Positions 37,766 through 46,601 of a stretch of DNA of 46,601 nt are shown here, in pieces (position 1 is the stretch's first letter; each line of letters opens with the position of its first letter). Source of the DNA: Burkholderiales bacterium (GTDB taxonomy: Bacteria; Pseudomonadota; Gammaproteobacteria; Burkholderiales; Casimicrobiaceae); NCBI GenBank assembly GCA_025354165.1, contig JANXNI010000020.1:1-46601 (forward strand). The letters are read 5' to 3'. Under the pieces are notes generated by a model. That model made no database searches. It saw only the letters and a program-made list of their open reading frames with translations, and had not been told where the DNA came from. The position numbers were made by a program, and so were the translations under genes.

Positions 37766-37914
37766 CGGCACGTTGCTTGTGCTCATCAACCGGCAGGAGG
37801 TTGGAGCATTGGGCTGTTCACATTAGACCCAACAGCGCATTCGGCACGTTGCTTGTGCTCACCAACCGGCAGGAGGTTGGGGCGTTGGGCTGTTCACATT
37901 AGACCCAACAGCGC
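37766..37914. repeat. 76-bp tandem direct repeat (two copies)
   Basis: Copy 1 (37766-37841) and copy 2 (37842 to about 37914) differ at only about three positions before the final bases diverge. Each contains CCAACC...GGTTGG-type and GTTGGG...CCCAAC hairpins. It starts just after the pobA stop. Confidence 0.85.
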
Positions 37915-37929
37915 TTATGGCGCTGTTGG
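37905..37929 (+). terminator. Perfect 10-bp hairpin after pobA repeat, possible terminator
   Basis: CCAACAGCGC (37905-37914) and GCGCTGTTGG (37920-37929) flank TTATG. There is no T run, so termination would be weak; the site might bind protein instead. It overlaps the end of the second 76-bp copy. Confidence 0.5.
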
Positions 37930-38001
37930 TACGAGGGCGTGTCCCAAATGTTGCGCGCAAACAACGTTTTCAAGCCATTTCGGAGCTCGCTCAATTATTT
38001 T

Positions 38002-38027
38002 ATGCCCCCAATTGTGCCCCCATATGC
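38002..38027. repeat. attL: 26-bp direct repeat, left copy
   Basis: This 26-base segment, starting ATGCCCCCAATTG and ending CATATGC, recurs exactly at 45653-45678. The flanks diverge at once on both sides. It marks the left junction and contains the motif GCCCCC twice. Confidence 0.9.
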
Positions 38028-38077
38028 GCTTGCTTGGGGGTCTTGCCGGTGACTGGTCGCTGTGCCAAACTATTTGA

Positions 38078-38836
38078 ATGGGGGAATCAAAGCGAATCGC
38101 AATCGTTGACTGTGAAACAACGGGACTACGCGAACACGATGAGGCAATCGCTATCGCGGTCGTGCTGTTGGACGTTGACGCGAAGGGTAACGCAACGCGC
38201 ATCAGTGAGTGGTTGGGTAAGCAGTATCCGAAAGCAGACATTCACCCAATGGCGGCGCGCGTCCACGGGATGACAAAGGAATCGCTCGCTGGGTCGGTAT
38301 TTGACGTTGAAGGTCTGCGCGCTTCTCTGACGCAAGCGCAGTGTTTAATCGCTCACAATGCCGCTTTTGATGCGCGGATGATTGGCAAGGTCGTACCTCA
38401 AGTTCTAGACGCCGAATGGCGATGCACGTATCGCCAATGGCCGTGGCCAAAATTACAGAATCGCAAGCTTGATTCGGCTTGCGGTCACTTCAGTGTGGAG
38501 CGGCCAAAAGTGCATGACGCTATGGCCGATGTTGACGCATTGATTGCGGTTCTGTCCCAGCGATCAGGGACGACAGATCGCAGCTCTACTTACCTTGGCA
38601 AACTGCTAGCGCGTGAAAATTTTGCGGTACGCGCCGAAATTGAAAATCAGCAATCGCGATCAAGCGTTGGGCCGTCGTACGAGGCGCATATTTATGTCCA
38701 CCTCGGGACGACAGCCCAAAATCCCGCGCCTGTTTCCTCTCCAGTCAGCACGAAACGCAAGGGCAAGACGATGCTGTATTTCTGGATAGGCGTTGTCGTT
38801 GCGATAGTGCTTCTCGTTAATCTCGGGAAGCGTTGA
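38078..38836 (+). CDS. DEDD-type 3'-5' exonuclease with C-terminal membrane anchor
   Basis: A 252-aa protein. Residues 1-170 are a DnaQ-like exonuclease domain: IAIVDCETTGLREHDEAIAI (Exo I, DxE), LIAHNAAFDARMIGKVV (Exo II, HNxxFD) and KVHDAMADVDALIAVLS (Exo III, HxAxxD). The remainder is a Ser/Pro-rich linker and one hydrophobic C-terminal helix (MLYFWIGVVVAIVLLVNL), a tail-anchor-like segment not usual in DnaQ proteins. It is the leftmost cargo gene of the element. A defensive or regulatory role is possible but not shown. Confidence 0.8.
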   Translation: MGESKRIAIVDCETTGLREHDEAIAIAVVLLDVDAKGNATRISEWLGKQYPKADIHPMAARVHGMTKESLAGSVFDVEGLRASLTQAQCLIAHNAAFDARMIGKVVPQVLDAEWRCTYRQWPWPKLQNRKLDSACGHFSVERPKVHDAMADVDALIAVLSQRSGTTDRSSTYLGKLLARENFAVRAEIENQQSRSSVGPSYEAHIYVHLGTTAQNPAPVSSPVSTKRKGKTMLYFWIGVVVAIVLLVNLGKR

Positions 38837-38966
38837 CGCTTTCGTAGCTCGCGATCATCATCAGCATTTCATCGCAACCATCCTTGCGCTGCATCGCGTC
38901 ATTTAGCTCCGCAGTCCACTTATCCCGAAGCTGCATTTCATGGCGCAAGCTGAATAAGTTCAGCAC
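38817..38966 (-). CDS. Possible small protein (49 aa), convergent with the exonuclease
   Basis: GTG 38966 opens a 49-codon frame: LFSLRHEMQLRDKWTAELND, then AMQRKDGCDEMLMMIASYES. It is amphipathic and protein-like and overlaps the exonuclease 3' end by 20 bases. There is no clear ribosome site, and an upstream TTG is an alternative. It could also be a remnant. Confidence 0.3.
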   Translation of the reverse strand: MLNLFSLRHEMQLRDKWTAELNDAMQRKDGCDEMLMMIASYESVNASRD

Positions 38967-39176
38967 GATGGCAAGTGACGAAGTGTGGCGCAATGTAATT
39001 CTTCCGAACTGGAAACGACGTCTACATTAAACGATTGCGCGGAACCCTCAATGTGACGGCATAATGGGGAACGGAGCCGCAAAAGCGATTCGCACCGATG
39101 ATGATCTGTAAGGCGGTCGCTGAATGGACATTGAAGTGTTCGGACAGAGAATAAAAGTTTGGCAAGGGGAAAATTT
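38837..39176. other. Spacer between exonuclease and secreted-protein gene
   Basis: Apart from the doubtful small minus-strand frame (38817-38966) nothing is called. The right part (about 38990-39170) is probably the promoter region of the following gene. Confidence 0.4.
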
Positions 39177-40058
39177 ATGATTTCGATAAGGTCGGTTGCG
39201 GCGCTAATTTGCGTTATCGTGTCGGCGCATTGCGCGGCGTATACAGTGAAACCTGTGAACGGCTTATGGGCGGCAGATTCGGAGCTGTCACTGAGCGTCG
39301 GGCGAGCAATCAACATTGAAACTGGTGGCGATCTTGTGGTCGTTACTTTCTACAACTACACCACTAATGGCGCCCCCACTTTTTACGTGGGCGCTGGCGC
39401 GATCACCGCCACAAATACAGCAAACGTATCGTTATCTGAACCGCAAGGCGGGACGTGCCTCGGATGCAACCCGACATCAGGTAGTTTGCGCTCCTCGCCG
39501 GGCGTGGCTTTTTTTGAATTTATTACTCCTACATCGGGGTTTGTGACTCTGCCCGGCGAGCAGCGCAAAGCGATTTCCAAGGGGCTAATTACCCGTCCGG
39601 CGGCACCTGACGGACTAATGGGATTATGGGTTTGGGCGCGCATCGCTCCATCGGTTCAAGCGGCATTTGGTGACTACATGCTCCTTAGTCAGCGTGCCGC
39701 CGCCACGAGCAATGGCAATGGCTTAGTAACAAGCGCGGACGGTCTTTTTGGATGTGAATTGCAGGTAAGGGGAAATGCCGCAGGACAAGTGCTATGCCTT
39801 TCGATAACCAGTGCAGGATCGATAAATTATTTTGCTCTTAGCAAGTGGTTTGATGCCGATATGGACGGTCTCTGGCAATACTCGACGGCAAGCACGACAG
39901 TAAACGTTTTCACTGCAAAACGCTTGGTTGACGGTCACGGAAATTACGAGACCTTGAAGAGCGGAATTAGCAGCTCTCCCATGCTTGAAGCGGCATTCGC
40001 GGTGTACTCGGAACAGCTAGCAGGGAGCGCCGTTTTACGATTAACTTCGCCACCGTAA
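39177..40058 (+). CDS. Secreted protein of unknown function (element cargo)
   Basis: A 293-aa exported protein. It has a signal peptide (MISIRSVAALICVIVSAHCA, cleavage near CAAYT), then VKPVNGLWAADSELSLSVGR, LVVVTFYNYTTNGAPTFYVG and a second module beginning DGLMGLWVWARIAPS. The pattern GLW...SxGR..NIE...LxVxxYxYxxxGxPxxY recalls a repeated beta-sandwich or lipocalin-like module of secreted proteobacterial proteins; this is a weak resemblance. Four Cys residues occur in the mature part. AAGGGGA precedes ATG 39177; an upstream TTG is in frame. It is the second cargo gene of the element. Confidence 0.72.
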   Translation: MISIRSVAALICVIVSAHCAAYTVKPVNGLWAADSELSLSVGRAINIETGGDLVVVTFYNYTTNGAPTFYVGAGAITATNTANVSLSEPQGGTCLGCNPTSGSLRSSPGVAFFEFITPTSGFVTLPGEQRKAISKGLITRPAAPDGLMGLWVWARIAPSVQAAFGDYMLLSQRAAATSNGNGLVTSADGLFGCELQVRGNAAGQVLCLSITSAGSINYFALSKWFDADMDGLWQYSTASTTVNVFTAKRLVDGHGNYETLKSGISSSPMLEAAFAVYSEQLAGSAVLRLTSPP

Positions 40059-40490
40059 CTTGCGCATGACCGCCTTGCTCGTCTAACTGCGCCGCCGCTT
40101 CGCGCGCGCGAAGGGATTTAACTTTTTTAAGGTTCTTTATGATAAGAACGGTACACATTTGATTTCTGTGTGAGACGTTTCGGAGATTCACGCCCCTTAT
40201 CCCCTCCGTGTTTTTTGGCATTTTGGGAGTTTGCGTTAAATCAATTGCACGCACTTGGTTTCTAGCAATGAAGTCGGGGCGATGCGATGTACCCCGCGCC
40301 GTCCCAACGCTCTCAATGAGGCGCACGCAAATCAATTTTCTAGCTTGGCTGCGGAAAAAAACGGGTCGCCTTGGTGTCTAGTTCGAAGCGGCGCAGAGAT
40401 TTAGTAGGCATACGGGGTAGGCGGTGCCATTGATCTCACGGCGCTTGCGAACGAGGGCGTGCAATCTCATTGCGCAGATTAGCCGGGTCA
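40059..40490. other. Convergent non-coding region of the element
   Basis: A 430-base stretch lies between the rightward cargo gene and the end of the leftward operon. It contains the perfect 16-bp palindrome CTTCGCGCGCGCGAAG (40098-40113), followed by an AT-rich segment. A 122-codon minus-strand frame (39967-40335) is only partly protein-like and overlaps the cargo gene, so I do not call it. The region may hold terminators or an origin of replication. Confidence 0.4.
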
Positions 40491-41069
40491 CTATGCATGT
40501 GGTGTGAATGCCTTGCATCGCGTGGCGACACTCCAATCCACAATCACACTCGCCAATGCGTCATCATGCTGCACCACTCCATCTGGACTGACGCAATACC
40601 GCACCACGGCGTTGTTGTTGCGGCCCCGGTGGTGGTCGCAGTCCCGACAATCGCGTATAGGCTCTGGTGACGACGTGGGCGCGACTCGCTCAATTTCTTC
40701 CAGCAGGTAGTGAATGTCGCCGTCAATCCTGTCCGGTGCCATGCGTTTGCGTACTGCCAGCAAGTCATCACGGCGCGCTTGATCGTCGCCACGAACATCG
40801 CAAAGCTCGTGAATCAGCAAGTCGCACCAGTTGATCCGGTCGATTAAGTTTGACCAGAATATTTTCGATTCTTCGGATTCGTCCTCGTTGGCCGCGTCAG
40901 ACGATAGCGCGGCAAGCGATGCAACGATCTCCGCTTTGTGTTCGCGCAATCGCGGTGCCCACCTTTCAGCCGCAGCTTTTGGCCCGGTTAGCTTGATCAT
41001 TCGCGATGGTGTCAACGCCAACCGCAAGCCGTCCATTTCCGCGTCGTGAATCAGAGTTGCAGCGCTCAT
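40491..41069 (-). CDS. Element protein of unknown function (192 aa)
   Basis: The N-terminal ~40 residues (LRLALTPSRMIKLTGPKAAA, ERWAPRLREHKAEIVASL) resemble the TubC-like N-terminal module that occurs in many phage and island proteins. The middle is acidic and helical. The end has a Cys/His cluster (CRDCDHHRG, VRYCVS, TRCKAF) that could bind zinc. It is the last gene of the leftward operon, and its ATG overlaps the ATPase stop by four bases. Function is unknown; a replication accessory role is inferred from position. Confidence 0.75.
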   Translation of the reverse strand: MSAATLIHDAEMDGLRLALTPSRMIKLTGPKAAAERWAPRLREHKAEIVASLAALSSDAANEDESEESKIFWSNLIDRINWCDLLIHELCDVRGDDQARRDDLLAVRKRMAPDRIDGDIHYLLEEIERVAPTSSPEPIRDCRDCDHHRGRNNNAVVRYCVSPDGVVQHDDALASVIVDWSVATRCKAFTPHA

Positions 41070-42283
41070 AACTCCATCTCCGTTTCTGTTGATTCCGCCC
41101 GAAGGCGCTCAACTTGTTCGAAGGCGCTCACACTTTTTTGGTGAGCATCTTCGGTGTTTGGTGAGCATGTTCGCAACTCCAACATCCAACAGCCTTTCAT
41201 CGCGGACTTCACCGATTTGACTTTGAGCTGCTTTTTTGCCCGCCTTAAAGTCGCAACCGAGATACCCGCTGCCTTCGCCTCTGCTTCCACTTCTTTTGAG
41301 GGAACTTGTCCATTGGCGAGCGCGTTTTGTAGGAACTCAACCGCATCGTCGACGATAGTTTTTTCGTCGTTGTGGCCGTCGGTGTTTTCCGCTTCGTTTA
41401 ACAATGCCAGCGCTGAACCGGTGATTGCACCCCCCCATTGCACGCCCTGTGCCCAGATGCCGGGTTTGATTTCGGACCGTTCGAGAAAGAACTCGAAACC
41501 GCCGTCGTCTGCCGAAATGTTTGATTTCGCTCGAGCAATAATTCGGGTGAGCTTGCCGCCCTCCGGGTCTTCAACCTTTGACGCCACCAACACCATGCGG
41601 GCGAGCGCAACAAATGCCTGTGAGCCGATAACACGCTCTGCCGGGTCGGTTGCGCTTGATCCTTTCCTAAAGTGCGTGATTCCGAGTACGGCGATATTGC
41701 GAGCTGATGCCATATCAACCACGGCCTGTAATCCGCGCCGTGTCTCTGCGGCTTTGTGCGAGTCACCGCCCACCGCCGATAGCACCGGATCAAGAATCAG
41801 AAGGCGCAAGTCGGGGATGGACGCGGCCTGCTCTTCCAGTGCCCCAATGTCTTGCGCCGGATCAAACGCGCGTCGGTTTCCGTCTGCGTCTACAAAGCCC
41901 GTCACGAATTGGACACGCGACAAGTCTGCATTCATCGCCATCAAACGCGGGACAAGTGTTGTGTCCATCGCATCCTCGCTTGACCATATCAGCACTGAGC
42001 CTGGGTTGTTCATCGGCGTGCCGTCTGGCCATCGGCCTGCGTTGGTAATGGTTGCCGCCATTGCCAATGCAAGCGTCGATTTGCCGCACCCCGGAAGACC
42101 CGCCAGTAGCGCCAACATGCCGCGCGGTAAGTAACCCTCCCACAGCCAATCTATCGGCTTGACGGTCACGCTATCCGCGCCCGTGAGCACGATGCTTTGG
42201 TGAGCGGACTTTGCATCTGCGCTACGTTCAGGCTTCGCTGTAGCCGCGTTGATTTTTTGGGAGAGTTCCGGCACGGCGATCAT
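41066..42283 (-). CDS. RepA/DnaB-type AAA ATPase (replicative helicase-like)
   Basis: A 405-aa P-loop ATPase of the RepA/RecA-like AAA_25 group found in plasmids and satellites. Walker A is LLAGLPGCGKSTLALAMAAT; Walker B is LRLLILDPVLSAVGG; ITHFRKGSSATDPAERVIGS is the typical following block. The C-terminal part (VATLRRAKKQLKVKSVKSAM) looks like a winged helix. An in-frame ATG at 42313 exists, but ATG 42283 overlaps the primase stop (ATGA), matching the other junctions of the operon, and has GAGGTG upstream. It probably unwinds DNA at the element's origin. Confidence 0.85.
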   Translation of the reverse strand: MIAVPELSQKINAATAKPERSADAKSAHQSIVLTGADSVTVKPIDWLWEGYLPRGMLALLAGLPGCGKSTLALAMAATITNAGRWPDGTPMNNPGSVLIWSSEDAMDTTLVPRLMAMNADLSRVQFVTGFVDADGNRRAFDPAQDIGALEEQAASIPDLRLLILDPVLSAVGGDSHKAAETRRGLQAVVDMASARNIAVLGITHFRKGSSATDPAERVIGSQAFVALARMVLVASKVEDPEGGKLTRIIARAKSNISADDGGFEFFLERSEIKPGIWAQGVQWGGAITGSALALLNEAENTDGHNDEKTIVDDAVEFLQNALANGQVPSKEVEAEAKAAGISVATLRRAKKQLKVKSVKSAMKGCWMLELRTCSPNTEDAHQKSVSAFEQVERLRAESTETEMEL

Positions 42284-43131
42284 GCGGCACCTCGCATGTC
42301 GTTCCAGTCGCACCCGGCTATCGGCGGTATCGCGACCAGACCATCTATCGCCGTTGCCGCTGCGCTCGCGTAGCGTTGACCAATTTGATTCACGTCGTTA
42401 TCGGCGTAGAGCGTGATTTTTGCATCTGGAAAACTTACTCGCAAAGCGGTTGCGACTGCCAGTAAATTACCCGCAGAAAATGCCGCGAACATGGCGACGG
42501 TCGGTAGTGTTTCAGCGAGCGTTGCGCCTGTTGCATAGCCCTCGCAAATACCGATTCGCTGCTCTGCATTCACCCAAAAATCTGGCATGTCCGCGAACGG
42601 AAAACAACCGCCGCTAACACGTCCGTCGGTCAACATCTTTTTGTTGCCGTCAGCGTCGATCATCTGAACGGTTTGCAGCTTGCCGGTTGACGCTGAATAA
42701 ATCGGGATCACAAGCAAGCCGTAACCGTTGACTCTCACGGTATGCGGTTGAATGCCCTTGCGCACGATGTAGGCGTGCTCTGTAGCGTCGCGCGTTGCCT
42801 GTTCAAGCATTTGCCTCGCCCTTATTGCTGCATCGCTGTGGGTGCGTTCCTGAGCCTCTGCGCGTGCGTGCCGTTCTTGTTCGAAGCGATCACGGTCGGC
42901 TTGCGTGAACGATGCGCTCTTTTGGTCAGCTCGCCACTTGCCAGAAATGCCGCGTTTGTTGCATCCGAAAGCACCAGCGGGATAGTTGCCGTCGTGCAGC
43001 ACGTACCATGCGTTGCGCGTTCCAGCTTTGTCACCGTCAACGTGTGCCCGATGCAGTTTTCCATCGGTGATGATCTCGTCGTTAATTGGAATGCCAGCTT
43101 CGTGAATGGCTCGGATGAAATCTGCGCTCAC
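42280..43131 (-). CDS. TOPRIM-domain primase-like protein
   Basis: A 283-aa protein of the type that pairs with RepA-like helicases in plasmids and satellites. The N-terminal part (AIHEAGIPINDEIITDGKLH) is the substrate-binding or zinc-free N-domain. The TOPRIM core follows: RIGICEGYATGATLAETLPT with catalytic Glu, then KITLYADNDVNQIGQRYA (DxD), and a final GCDWNDM. It starts with GTG 43131 and shares GTGA with the upstream gene. It would make primers for element replication. Confidence 0.85.
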   Translation of the reverse strand: MSADFIRAIHEAGIPINDEIITDGKLHRAHVDGDKAGTRNAWYVLHDGNYPAGAFGCNKRGISGKWRADQKSASFTQADRDRFEQERHARAEAQERTHSDAAIRARQMLEQATRDATEHAYIVRKGIQPHTVRVNGYGLLVIPIYSASTGKLQTVQMIDADGNKKMLTDGRVSGGCFPFADMPDFWVNAEQRIGICEGYATGATLAETLPTVAMFAAFSAGNLLAVATALRVSFPDAKITLYADNDVNQIGQRYASAAATAIDGLVAIPPIAGCDWNDMRGAA

Positions 43132-43412
43132 AGTTTGCCTCCGATCATCGCGAAGAATGCAGCGACCGCCTCAAGACTTTTCATCTCTCGCACCATGCCC
43201 CAGCGTGACGCTAGATACAGAATTGCACCGTCAGCGCTCGCCGTTCGATAGAGGGTATGACCGCAGATTGCGTATTTGGCTTGCCACGTTGAAAAGCACT
43301 TTTCAGCGTCTCGATTCGTGGCAGAATTCGCTATGTGCTTCGTTGTGGTTGCGCCGAAAAAGCCCTGCTTGAACGGGGCTTTTTTTTGCGTGTCGTTTGG
43401 GCGGGCGTTCAC
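43128..43412 (-). CDS. Small element protein (94 aa) with hairpin inside its coding sequence
   Basis: The start GTG 43412 shares GTGA with the AlpA stop, like the other junctions of this operon. The frame is also open to GTG 43448, but that start lies in AlpA. The product begins NARPNDTQKKAPFKQGFFGA and ends SLEAVAAFFAMIGGKL; YAICGHTLYRTASADGAILY and LASRWGMVREMKSLEAVAAF look like a real domain. Residues 8-17 or so (KKAPFKQGFF) are encoded by a terminator-like hairpin. No further function is recognised. Confidence 0.65.
   Translation of the reverse strand: MNARPNDTQKKAPFKQGFFGATTTKHIANSATNRDAEKCFSTWQAKYAICGHTLYRTASADGAILYLASRWGMVREMKSLEAVAAFFAMIGGKL
43357..43387 (-). terminator. Bidirectional terminator-like hairpin inside a coding sequence
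   Basis: AGCCC (43361-43365) and GGGCT (43376-43380) with flanking A and T runs form a rho-independent-type signal on both strands. It lies 22 bases beyond the AlpA stop, within the 94-aa frame, so it could act as an attenuator between AlpA and the replication genes. Confidence 0.65.
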
Positions 43413-43618
43413 TTCAAACCGCCTGTCGATTTGCGGGATGCAATCCACTCATTTACGTCGGATTCAAGCCAACCGACTGCGCGCTGAGAGAGTTGCACCG
43501 GGGCCGGAAACTCGCCCTTCGCTACCAACACATACAGCGAGCTTCGCCCTAGGCCGATTGCCTCTTGCACTACCGGACGGCGCAAAATTCGCGGCGCATT
43601 TGTTTTCAATTCCATCAT
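43409..43618 (-). CDS. AlpA-family transcriptional regulator/excisionase
   Basis: A 69-aa helix-turn-helix protein of the AlpA/MerR-like type that activates int or promotes excision in P4-like elements. The motif RPVVQEAIGLGRSSLYVLVA, then KGEFPAPVQLSQRAVGWLES, and DVNEWIASR are canonical. Two adjacent ATG codons occur (43618, 43615). It is the first gene of the leftward operon and lies below a region rich in palindromes, probably its own operators. Confidence 0.92.
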   Translation of the reverse strand: MMELKTNAPRILRRPVVQEAIGLGRSSLYVLVAKGEFPAPVQLSQRAVGWLESDVNEWIASRKSTGGLK

Positions 43619-43628
43619 TTACTTTCTC

Positions 43629-43709
43629 GGAACCAATCGTTCCGCGTTGGTATCCGCGAAGGCTTCGCGGAACATGATGGACGTTTTATTTAGGCGAGAT
43701 ATATCGCCT
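43629..43709. promoter_or_regulatory. Cluster of three palindromes upstream of AlpA gene
   Basis: Within 81 bases there are GGAAC-CAATC-GTTCC (43629-43643), CCGCGAAG-G-CTTCGCGG (43654-43670) and AGGCGA-GATATA-TCGCCT (43692-43709). They occupy the gap upstream of the AlpA-led operon and are likely operators or part of an origin. Confidence 0.65.
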
Positions 43710-43719
43710 GTACTGTGCG

Positions 43720-44346
43720 TTATTTTTGTTTGCGCGGGCGCGATGCTGGCAAAAGTCCTTCACTTTTTAGCGCGCGACGAACGGCCATGATTCCGACTTT
43801 GTAGTCCCGTTGAATAAAGATTGCGTGTAGTGTTGCGGGGATATTTCTCCGGTCTTTTCCAGCGTCGCTTAAGCGCCCAAATTCGACCACAAGGTCGCGG
43901 CGATCCTTGCTACCGGGAGGAAACACACTCGCCGCCTCACGATTCTTTTTGAGCGCACTTGCACGGCTATTTTTTGCAATGCTGTATTTCCTTAGGGTCT
44001 GAAAATATCGCTCAGTTTCGGCAATCATCATCGCTCGTTCTAGCGCAAGCATCGCAAAATCGGCCGGGTCGTTTGCGCTTGTAAAAGTGAAATTCTGCGC
44101 CTCTAAGCGTTTCTGAATGAAAAGCAATTCGTCATCAAATTGGGGAAGTGCGGCCGCTTGCACCTGAGTCACCAGTCTCTTAAACCGTTCGGGTGGTGCA
44201 GCGGCTTTCAATAGGTCAAGAAGCAATTCCGGCGTAACGTCGTCATCGTCGTACGTAACTGTTTCGCCAGTGACTAGACCCAGCCGATATGCCGTGCGAG
44301 TCCCATTTCGGGCCACTTGAGGGGCGGATGGTTTCTTCTTCATCAT
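43720..44346 (-). CDS. Element protein of unknown function (208 aa)
   Basis: A basic, Lys/Ala-rich protein starting MMKKKPSAPQVARNGTRTAY and ending RRALKSEGLLPASRPRKQK. The middle (LFIQKRLEAQNFTFTSANDP, LERAMMIAETERYFQTLRKY) is helical, and the last 60 residues (IFIQRDYKVGIMAVRRALKS) resemble a small DNA-binding or winged-helix-like region. The frame is open to 44457 inside int, but ATG 44346 is the sensible start, 42 bases past the int stop. It lies between int and the AlpA operon. No family is recognised. Confidence 0.7.
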   Translation of the reverse strand: MMKKKPSAPQVARNGTRTAYRLGLVTGETVTYDDDDVTPELLLDLLKAAAPPERFKRLVTQVQAAALPQFDDELLFIQKRLEAQNFTFTSANDPADFAMLALERAMMIAETERYFQTLRKYSIAKNSRASALKKNREAASVFPPGSKDRRDLVVEFGRLSDAGKDRRNIPATLHAIFIQRDYKVGIMAVRRALKSEGLLPASRPRKQK

Positions 44347-44387
44347 TGCTATCGTTGGGGATATGCGGCCGACGGCCTGCCAGTGTT

Positions 44388-45620
44388 CTATGCGGCTTTC
44401 GGAGCGAAGGGAATCACGTTCCCGCCCGCTGCGATTGCGTCCAAATAGTCCGCCCAACGCTGCATCATCTTGCGGCGCTGTTCGATATGACTGGTGCGGT
44501 TGTAGGCTGTGCCCAATGCATCGCGCACCGCGTGCGCTAGCTGCGCTTCAATGACGTGGGGAGGCTCTTCCAGCACTTCATCCAACAGCGTGCGGGCCAT
44601 TGCGCGAAAGCCGTGGGCGGTCATCTGCTCTTTCGAGTAGCCGAGCGAGCGCAGCGCAGCAGTAACGGTGTTTTCGCTCATCGGGCGATCATGGGTGCGC
44701 TCACCGGGGAACACATAGCGCCCGTGCCCGGTCATTGGTTGAACTTTTCGCAGTGCGTCGACGGCTTGCGAGCACAGCGGCACCAGATGCGGCACGCCGT
44801 TTTCTTTGTCCTCTTTTTTGCGCTTCATCTTCGCGCTGGGGATAGCCCACATGCCCGCGTCAAGGTCTAGCTCTGACCATTCGATCATGCGGATGTTGCC
44901 GGGACGTTGAAACGTGAGCGCGGACAGCACGAGCGCAGTACGGACAACAGGCCCGCCGTTGTAGTCGCGAATGGAACGGATCAGCGCGCCCACTTCGCGC
45001 GGGTCGGTACGCGTGGCCGCGTGCTTCACCATCATCGGCTTAATGGCACCGCGTAACGCGGGCGTCGGGTCGTTTGCAGCTCGTGCGGTCGCTACCGCAT
45101 AGCGGCACACTTGACCCACAACGATGCGAACGCCGTGGGCTATTTCCATGTCGCCGCGTTCTTCAGGCGGGCGAATCAGCGCGAGCACGTCCGCAGACGA
45201 TAGCTGTGCAATGGGCTTGGTGCCAATGGCCGGGAAAACGTGAAGCTCCAACCGGCGAAGCAATTTGTGGGCGTGCGTTTCGGACCATCCCGGCGAAAAC
45301 TTTGCGTGCCATTCGCGGGCGATTGACTCGAACGGGTCAACGCCCACAGCCGCTTGCTTATCGGCCTTGCGTGCCGCAATGGGGTCGGCACCGGTCGCGA
45401 CGTGTTCGCGGGCGATCATCGTGGCTTCGCGTGCCGCAGCGAGCGTGACCGCCGGATAGACGCCCAGCGCCGCCCGCTTCTCTTTTCCGGCTAGGCGGTA
45501 CTTCAGTCGCCAATATTTGCCGCCCGCTGCGGTGACTTCCAGATACAGGCCGTCACGGTCGTACAGCCGGTAGGTCTTTTCGGTGGGCTTCGCCTTGCGA
45601 ACTTCGGTGTCGGTCAGCAT
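44388..45620 (-). CDS. Tyrosine integrase with DUF4102-type N-terminal arm-binding domain
   Basis: Site-specific recombinase of the P4/DUF4102 integrase group (410 aa). The N-terminus MLTDTEVRKAKPTEKTYRLY is the arm-binding domain. The catalytic residues are visible: Arg in LSALTFQRPGNIRMIEWSEL, HGFR in MTAHGFRAMARTLL, and Tyr in ALGTAYNRTSHIEQRRKMMQ. The preferred start is ATG 45620; in-frame upstream starts (ATG 45674) fall inside the attachment site. It reads away from attR and lies beside tRNA-Leu. Confidence 0.93.
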   Translation of the reverse strand: MLTDTEVRKAKPTEKTYRLYDRDGLYLEVTAAGGKYWRLKYRLAGKEKRAALGVYPAVTLAAAREATMIAREHVATGADPIAARKADKQAAVGVDPFESIAREWHAKFSPGWSETHAHKLLRRLELHVFPAIGTKPIAQLSSADVLALIRPPEERGDMEIAHGVRIVVGQVCRYAVATARAANDPTPALRGAIKPMMVKHAATRTDPREVGALIRSIRDYNGGPVVRTALVLSALTFQRPGNIRMIEWSELDLDAGMWAIPSAKMKRKKEDKENGVPHLVPLCSQAVDALRKVQPMTGHGRYVFPGERTHDRPMSENTVTAALRSLGYSKEQMTAHGFRAMARTLLDEVLEEPPHVIEAQLAHAVRDALGTAYNRTSHIEQRRKMMQRWADYLDAIAAGGNVIPFAPKAA

Positions 45621-45686
45621 TTGGGGGCACATTCCGTGGGGGCACTTTGCAGATGCCCCCAATTGTGCCCCCATATGCCCCCGGCT
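45621..45686. repeat. Cluster of GGGGGCA-type repeats at the integrase end
   Basis: Within about 65 bases there are five copies of GGGGGCA or its inverse TGCCCCC. Two read GGGGGCAC on the + strand (from 45623 and 45638), and three read TGCCCCC or GTGCCCCC at and just beyond attR. They could be integrase binding sites (arm or core type). Confidence 0.65.
45653..45678. repeat. attR: 26-bp direct repeat, right copy
   Basis: Exact copy of 38002-38027. The sequence beyond it (towards tRNA-Leu) is chromosomal. Recombination between the two copies would release a circle of about 7.65 kb and leave one copy. Confidence 0.9.
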
Positions 45687-45786
45687 TCAACCGGACGCCT
45701 ACAAACGAATACGGACGCCGAAGCGTCCGTAAGTCGTTGTTCACTAAGGGAAAAAAGACGTTTTCGGATGTTCTCGAATGTCTTCT

Positions 45787-45873
45787 TGGTACCGAGGGCG
45801 GGACTCGAACCCGCACGATGTCACCAACGGTGGATTTTGAATCCACTGCGTCTACCAATTCCGCCACCCCGGC
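45787..45873 (-). tRNA. tRNA-Leu (anticodon CAA)
   Basis: On the minus strand an 87-nt class II tRNA is seen: acceptor GCCGGGG with CCTCGGT, D loop AATTGGTAGACGC, anticodon stem GTGGA/TCCAC with loop TTCAAAA (anticodon CAA), a long variable arm (CGTTGGTGACATCG), T arm GCGGGTTCGAGTCCCGC, discriminator A and encoded CCA. The long variable arm supports Leu. Confidence 0.95.
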
Positions 45874-46394: not shown

Positions 46395-46466
46395 AGGTAC
46401 ACCTTTTCTACGTAATGACCACTGCATTGGGGCTGTACCGATAAATAGGCAATAGTCGACACCTGA

Positions 46467-46601
46467 TTAGCAAGCTGTCTCAGGAAGCCTTATTTTGCGT
46501 AGTGGCTGAGGGCTTGAGGCAACGGCGGCGTGCAACAGTCTGGGCAGCATCGCCTTCAGGTTTGATCGCCGATTGAATCGATAGGCGAACTCCGCCAGAT
46601 A
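46467..46601 (-). CDS. C-terminal end of ISXO2/IS1595-type transposase (cut by window edge)
   Basis: The minus-strand frame reads in from the right edge as YLAEFAYRFNRRSNLKAMLP, then RLLHAAVASSPQPLRKIRLP and stops at TAA 46467-46469. The EFAYRFNRR and LPRLL patterns are hallmarks of the C-terminus of ISXO2-like DDE transposases. The frame has no start in the window. Just beyond the stop, GGCAATAGTCGACACC (46448-46463) may be part of the terminal inverted repeat. Confidence 0.75.
   Translation of the reverse strand, partial: YLAEFAYRFNRRSNLKAMLPRLLHAAVASSPQPLRKIRLPETAC

Follow-up and report, generated by a model that had tools for sequence, protein, structure and literature searches.

Where does the mobile element near the right end of this contig begin and end, and what has happened to the tRNA gene in which it lies? 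The DNA analyzed here, referred to as the window, comprises 46,601 nucleotides (nt) of contig JANXNI010000020.1 from a Burkholderiales bacterium (assembly GCA_025354165.1). A preliminary description of it, made from the sequence, had placed an element of 7.68 kb between two exact 26-bp direct repeats. We found that the island is 7,861 bp (~7.86 kb) long, that it is inserted in the 3′ end of a tRNA-Leu(CAA) gene, a site that the description did not name, and that the tRNA fragment displaced to its far end, the attachment site attR, is one base short at position 70. The element is probably a small integrative island of the satellite type with a P4-type integrase, inserted at this tRNA end and with this shortened attR. 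Small deletions from position 69|70 were the rule at the integrated sites of this integrase group and were absent from nearly all attachment sites of free elements (attP) examined. The following features mark the ends of the island:

37933..45793, unstranded: the island, i.e., the DNA between tRNA nucleotide 69 (in the copy) and nucleotide 70, with the exact cut predicted at 69|70
45787..45873, minus strand: tRNA-Leu(CAA), the target gene (ARAGORN; Rfam RF00005)
37927..37939, minus strand: attR, a 13-nt copy of the tRNA 3′ end, CGCCCTCG-TACCA, without one G (position 70 or 71)
38002..38027, minus strand: distal 26-bp repeat, predicted tandem integrase arm sites
45653..45678, minus strand: proximal 26-bp repeat, predicted tandem integrase arm sites, with a third motif copy then at 45676-45682
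45622..45644, plus strand: two arm sites in inverted orientation, immediately ahead of the integrase start, with the annotated inverted copy at the int start as the P4 counterpart

The 26-bp repeat, ATGCCCCCAATTGTGCCCCCATATGC, is real. It occurs exactly at 38002-38027 and 45653-45678 and, with up to 3 mismatches allowed, at these two places only in the 4.7-Mb assembly, far beyond chance (mean of 0.00 matches in 100 shuffles). As island ends, the two copies are contradicted by comparison with three genomes of the same genus. The copy of the tRNA end in attR is separated from the distal repeat by 62 bp, and 108 bp lie between the proximal repeat and the tRNA end. The integrase start, the arm region, and the placement of the tRNA recur in genomes G012 and G013, the latter having another target gene, tRNA-Leu(TAA). 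Genome G001 is taken as the unoccupied site: no integrase of the window's family was detected on its 54.5-kb contig (tblastn, E 1e-3), and the flank outside the left end of the island aligns with the sequence just behind its tRNA (121 columns, score of 125; maximum of 32 in 500 shuffles). The 108-bp stretch aligns with the same stretch in G012 (score of 139) and G013 (score of 125), while the int side matches the empty tRNA-Leu locus of G001 at chance level (score of 18), and these 108 bp thus belong to the island. In G001, pobA and tRNA-Leu(CAA), which are neighbors of the island in the window, are ~50 kb apart in a different gene order (contig C132; loci L062, L155, and L063), so that only the stretch adjoining the tRNA serves as the empty site. 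An empty site with the 26-bp core had been proposed as a check on the element; the G001 site speaks against that core and not against the island. Behind pobA, at positions 37766-37917, there are two tandem copies of 76 bp (93% alike), with a hairpin adjoining attR; their relatives behind the tRNA-Leu gene of G001 are perhaps the original tRNA terminator region.

We read the 26-bp repeat as a pair of P4-type integrase arm sites, neither crossover site nor boundary, because the annotated arm repeats of phage P4 (X51522) share its motif at similar spacing and because most of the relatives viewed have such a tandem. Both copies contain TGGGGGCA tandems, and in the region upstream of int, viewed by eye in 30 of the 80 relatives kept, most had a tandem of this motif or of a variant (GGGGGTA, GGGGGAACA, or ACGGTATC). 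The integrase would bind these sites. Were the repeat instead the crossover core, with an intergenic insertion site downstream of the tRNA, its perfect identity over 26 bp and its restriction to two copies in the genome would be explained. We consider this highly improbable and rejected the repeat as core: a tRNA-end copy lies outside the left repeat, the bases between repeat and tRNA are conserved in the G012 and G013 islands at two different tRNA-Leu genes and absent from the empty G001 site, and the annotated arm repeats of P4 have the same motif in the same layout. For annotators, long perfect repeats near such islands may therefore be integrase arm sites and not ends.

At the far end of the G013 island, a 22-nt copy of its own tRNA-Leu(TAA) end is again one base short. 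A first scan, not anchored on arm sites, gave 20 matches in 90 tests, namely, 18 with a one-base deletion, 1 exact (L164), and 1 with an insertion (L127); the last was judged to be a chance match, with no arm sites beside it by eye. Its controls yielded 29 matches with 3 deletions in 914 decoy scans and 2 matches with 0 deletions in 90 reverse-strand scans. The arm-anchored scan covered 143 integrase loci: 80 of 218 integrase relatives, 60 of 136 further matches, hand-picked by score and room on the contig, and the loci of G000, G013, and G084. A tRNA or transfer-messenger RNA (tmRNA) gene lay upstream at 124 of these loci; 44 of the 124 had a distal arm pair, and 31 of the 44 had a recognizable core. 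All 31 cores had lost bases: 22 lost 1 nt, 3 lost 2, 5 lost 3, and 1 lost 4. Thirty of these deletions can be read as starting at tRNA position 70, counting L125, in which bases 70 to 72 are all C, although the script gave only 71 and 72. The targets were tRNA genes for Val, Met, Gly, Ala, Arg, Leu, Thr, Phe, and Asn as well as tmRNA genes (8 of the 31). Decoy tRNA ends passed the same scan in 5 of 1,420 cases, 2 of them as deletions. Outside this strict set, L182 is without bases 70 to 73, and L173 and L213 are one base short.

Some further observations concern these loci. In L192 and L182, both with four-base losses (70 to 73), only CCA is left behind the gap in the displaced fragment. Loci L148, L186, L191, L213, L167, and L194 and the viral loci L540, L571, and L586 appear to hold tandem islands, as either shared sequence or another integrase follows directly after the short copy; the tRNA copy that separates the two elements is damaged too. 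The size of the deletion differs between close relatives, and the idea that it is a fixed trait of particular integrases was rejected; the one-base label was weakly clustered on the integrase tree (9 changes; shuffled mean of 11.5, with 49 of 500 shuffles as low). Escherichia coli CP4-6 was dropped as a control because the integrase lies at the end far from thrW.

The free sites came from viral contigs and phage records with an integrase, without a full tRNA upstream, and with arm sites on both sides. Their cores were intact in 11 of 12 cases (Fisher p 2e-9 versus the 31 integrated cores); the twelfth, L535, was scored 3 nt short with the wrong CCA chosen, is intact by eye, and was kept as a miss. 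The integrases at these sites are 34 to 53% identical to that of the window, and among those with at least 44% identity, 6 of 7 cores were intact (Fisher p 2.5e-6). At four of the twelve sites (L216, which is P4, L218, L601, and L612), the match to the tRNA library spans 11 nt only and the true target is uncertain; the P4 attP core, unlike the window's attR, was judged by spacing to be intact at position 70. The cores of L477, L513, and L525 are also intact by eye. Locus L611 has a 77-bp terminal repeat that marks it as a complete circle, and its core is intact. Over 1.4 kb that include the integrase, L611 is 98.8% identical to L540, which is integrated at a tRNA-Thr gene and has an attR one base short relative to its own tRNA end. 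The viral thrW-type loci L540, L571, and L586 were considered as short attPs and rejected; their inner arm motifs differ from the outer ones by eye, and we interpret these loci as junctions between tandem elements. In single-arm pattern scans of viral contigs, the matches listed were mostly without an integrase behind them, and at least 3 had one. Since deletions were found at integrated sites and at nearly no free attP, they probably arise at or after integration.

The layout of the locus and the empty site suggest the following course. A P4-type integrase, bound to the tandem arm sites that flank the core, would have inserted the island in the 3′ end of tRNA-Leu(CAA). With strand exchange near tRNA position 69|70, the island would supply the last tRNA bases, here the last 7 nt (45787-45793), and the host tRNA end would be displaced to the far side and there lose one to four bases. 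The role of excisionase and switch would probably fall to AlpA. Judging from their families, the primase and helicase would copy the excised circle. Excision between the intact attL and the short attR would yield an intact circle and a short tRNA; as the displaced fragment is one base short, precise excision is predicted to leave a one-base-short tRNA-Leu. A search of the host genome with the tRNA-Leu(CAA) gene gave a single close match, and loss of the island would therefore hit the only copy seen. Other leucine tRNAs might still read its codon.

Attachment-site damage as such is already in print, and it is its generality in this integrase group that may be new. Excision of CP4So in Shewanella oneidensis removes a U from the 3′ end of ssrA and abolishes tmRNA function (PMC5148205). 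CP4So resembles the window island in the small deletion of the displaced fragment, with an RNA gene left one base short upon excision, and differs from it as a 36-kb cryptic prophage in ssrA. The Islander article (PMC4383910) calls such fragments “damaged” 3 bp upstream of the discriminator, citing Williams 2003; we take this to be position 70. Its count, which spans every integrase type, is 148 damaged cases among 3,919 islands, a far smaller share than the 31 of 31 seen here in one integrase group. The window island has the small deletion in the displaced tRNA fragment by which Islander recognizes damage, the lost G being position 70 or 71. Among the titles and abstract openings listed in our literature search, with most subscription journals outside its scope, none described a deletion that is near-universal for this integrase group at different tRNA genes.

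We tentatively propose, as a possibility somewhat short of even odds, that such damage is the usual outcome of integration by a whole group of P4-type integrases, at genes of at least nine tRNA isotypes and tmRNA, with 1 to 4 bases lost from 69|70 and an intact core in the circle, and that the island thereby holds the tRNA hostage. If so, curing would break the tRNA gene, and leaving in a lytic, helper-driven cycle would cost the island nothing. Routine damage would have three consequences: (i) loss of an island would be punished without any toxin, (ii) exact-repeat finders would miss or misplace island ends, as happened here, and (iii) the position of the strand cut could be read from genomes. 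The damage may be made by the integrase or may be selected because loss is punished.

A number of observations weigh against the pattern or its generality. (i) The 13-nt attR copy of the window is of moderate significance only, an equally good match having been obtained in 11 of 1,000 flank shuffles. (ii) Among the 44 arm-bearing loci, 13 had no core, L087 passes only at the threshold (score of 8), and the deletion in L178 starts at position 71. (iii) L164 is integrated, has arm sites, and retains 15 nt intact; L644, L656, L543, L563, and L565, as well as the ssrA-type loci L549, L554, and L561, look intact by spacing or sequence alone, with the target gene unseen. (iv) The two sets differ in kind, the free sites being mostly on phage-like contigs and the integrated ones in islands of <20 kb, and the left ends of L611 and L540 differ. 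That free and integrated sites belong to different elements also limits what the free attPs can say about another origin of the deletion, in which the base was lost already in the element's own attP, was inherited, and reached attR by heteroduplex segregation and selection for an intact tRNA. An inherited loss would likewise give an intact attL with a short attR, and it would suit deletion sizes that differ between close integrases. With 11 of 12 free attPs of the wider family intact, and the L611 circle intact as well, we nevertheless regard it as unlikely and favor loss at or after integration.

The gene content bears on the class of the element. All components named in the preliminary description are present (P4-type tyrosine integrase, AlpA, Toprim primase, AAA_25 helicase, and cargo), whereas the operon members without assignment number three (208, 106, and 192 aa) and not two. 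The genes are as follows:

44388..45620, minus strand: tyrosine integrase, P4 type (Arm-DNA-bind_3, Phage_int_M, Phage_integrase)
43720..44346, minus strand: 208-aa protein from ATG (245 aa from an upstream TTG), in the same place as the iolg/icg gene of phage-inducible chromosomal minimalist islands (PICMIs)
43409..43618, minus strand: AlpA, likely excisionase/regulator (PF05930, E 3.1e-17; phrog_2790, E 7.3e-13)
43128..43448, minus strand: 106-aa protein of no recognized family, overlapping the alpA and primase genes
42280..43131, minus strand: Toprim_3 primase (PF13362, E 2.2e-14; phrog_2249, E 6.1e-52)
41066..42313, minus strand: AAA_25 (RepA/DnaB-like) helicase (PF13481, E 5e-34)
40491..41069, minus strand: 192-aa protein of no recognized family, last operon gene
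39177..40058, plus strand: 293-aa cargo protein with a signal-peptide-like start by eye and relatives in 14 of 99 other genomes searched
38078..38836, plus strand: DnaQ-like DEDDh exonuclease (PF00929, E 4.9e-11; PADLOC DEDDh, E 1.5e-22, and PDC-S48, E 8.4e-17)

The description of the locus as an integrated mobile element with replication genes and AlpA, satellite-like or plasmid-like, was a fair one, and its statement that structural genes are missing was borne out: none was found among nine open reading frames (ORFs) scanned with Pfam and PHROGs, and eight further frames had no PHROGs match. These scanned ORFs also contained no terminase or capsid family, and the nine main ORFs had no relaxase, a mark of integrative mobilizable elements, in Pfam, PHROGs, and NCBIfam scans. 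Phage P4 resembles the island in its integrase family (39% identity), in the tandem TGGGGGCA arm repeats on both sides of the core with an inverted copy at the int start, and in a core within a tRNA-Leu end. It differs in carrying alpha (annotated in its record), which was not found in the island. P4 also carries psu, sid, and delta, which are marks of P4 satellites (PMC8628076). None of the three was detected in the nine main ORFs (Pfam, PHROGs) or the eight further frames (PHROGs). PICMIs (PMC10803314) share with the island the order of int, a gene beside int, alpA, a small gene, and a primase, as well as few genes and no structural ones. They differ in their site (fis versus tRNA-Leu), in their primase (DUF3987/DUF5906 versus Toprim_3 with a separate AAA_25 helicase), and in their hosts, which are Vibrionaceae; the island lies elsewhere and has no known helper. 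Gram-negative phage-inducible chromosomal islands (PICIs) are likewise composed of int, alpA, and replication genes, with no structural or lytic genes found, but typically span 12 to 15 kb, occupy attachment sites never used by prophages, and depend on phages for induction and packaging (PMC6092414), whereas the island has 7.9 kb and is without a terminase small subunit (TerS). The closest comparison within the genus is the sibling island of G013 (L061, ~7.1 kb), which is like that of the window in integrase type, arm sites, and one-base-short attR. It is unlike it in its target, tRNA-Leu(TAA), in a single fused 931-aa primase-helicase, and in a TerS gene (phrog_57, E 9.6e-22; no Pfam match for that protein).

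Owing to this TerS gene, a link to a helper is plausible for the group, and spread of the island by a helper phage is plausible, although neither a helper nor a terminase nor a packaging site was found for it. A stronger and not exclusive form of our preferred explanation makes the island a helper-dependent, PICI- or PICMI-like satellite packaged by its helper. We would give this an even chance: the PICMI-like order from int over alpA to the primase, the lack of structural genes, and the TerS of the sibling argue for it, and set against these, the island showed neither a TerS nor a cos motif nor a gene that would alter capsids. A P2/P4-type cos motif, one of the packaging motifs that had been proposed as a target of search, had no match in the window at up to 3 mismatches, and the host genome, an assembly of 97 contigs, had no match to the one portal family searched, Pfam Phage_portal (PF04860). 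Alternatively, the island may be what decay has left of a larger prophage or plasmid after the loss of its structural or transfer genes. Related primase-helicase genes in both phages and plasmids would fit such an origin, as would the pair of cargo genes and the 430 bp at 40059-40490, in which no gene was recognized. We think it improbable in view of operon genes that are open and mostly overlapping, two identical 26-bp arm sites with the ends in place, and a same-genus sibling of ~7.1 kb that uses the same kind of ends. As an island, the integrated satellite-type element that we favor is ordinary: it adds to the small elements with a P4-type integrase a further example from a betaproteobacterium, with a new operon gene set.

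The G+C content of the island is 55.4%, versus 58.0% for window positions 1-37000. Among its genes, the one beside int is an orphan: the 208-aa protein was found only in its own genome (1 of 300 genomes of the order), with no family in Pfam or NCBIfam scans and a weak phrog_2570 match (E 0.094). The primase had no match in the viral contigs searched. Phage relatives of the helicase are distant, the best 25 of 92 records all having <30% identity, and in plasmids (12 records) identity reached at best 47% over half its length. The DnaQ-like exonuclease has a hydrophobic segment at its C terminus by eye and is regarded as cargo with a possible function in defense. The same gene order was seen at Caballeronia locus L108, where int is followed by genes for a protein of 330 aa, AlpA, a protein of 383 aa, and an AAA_25 protein. 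At L060 (G012, contig C59, which also holds L074), an integrase with 72% identity to that of the window lies at the same tRNA-Leu(CAA) and is followed by a large ORF that by eye resembles a type III restriction subunit, i.e., the same docking with different cargo. At the right contig end, window positions 46436-46601 hold a repeat of ~138 to 166 bp that recurs with 96 to 99% identity on five other contigs of the genome and is probably the cause of the contig break.

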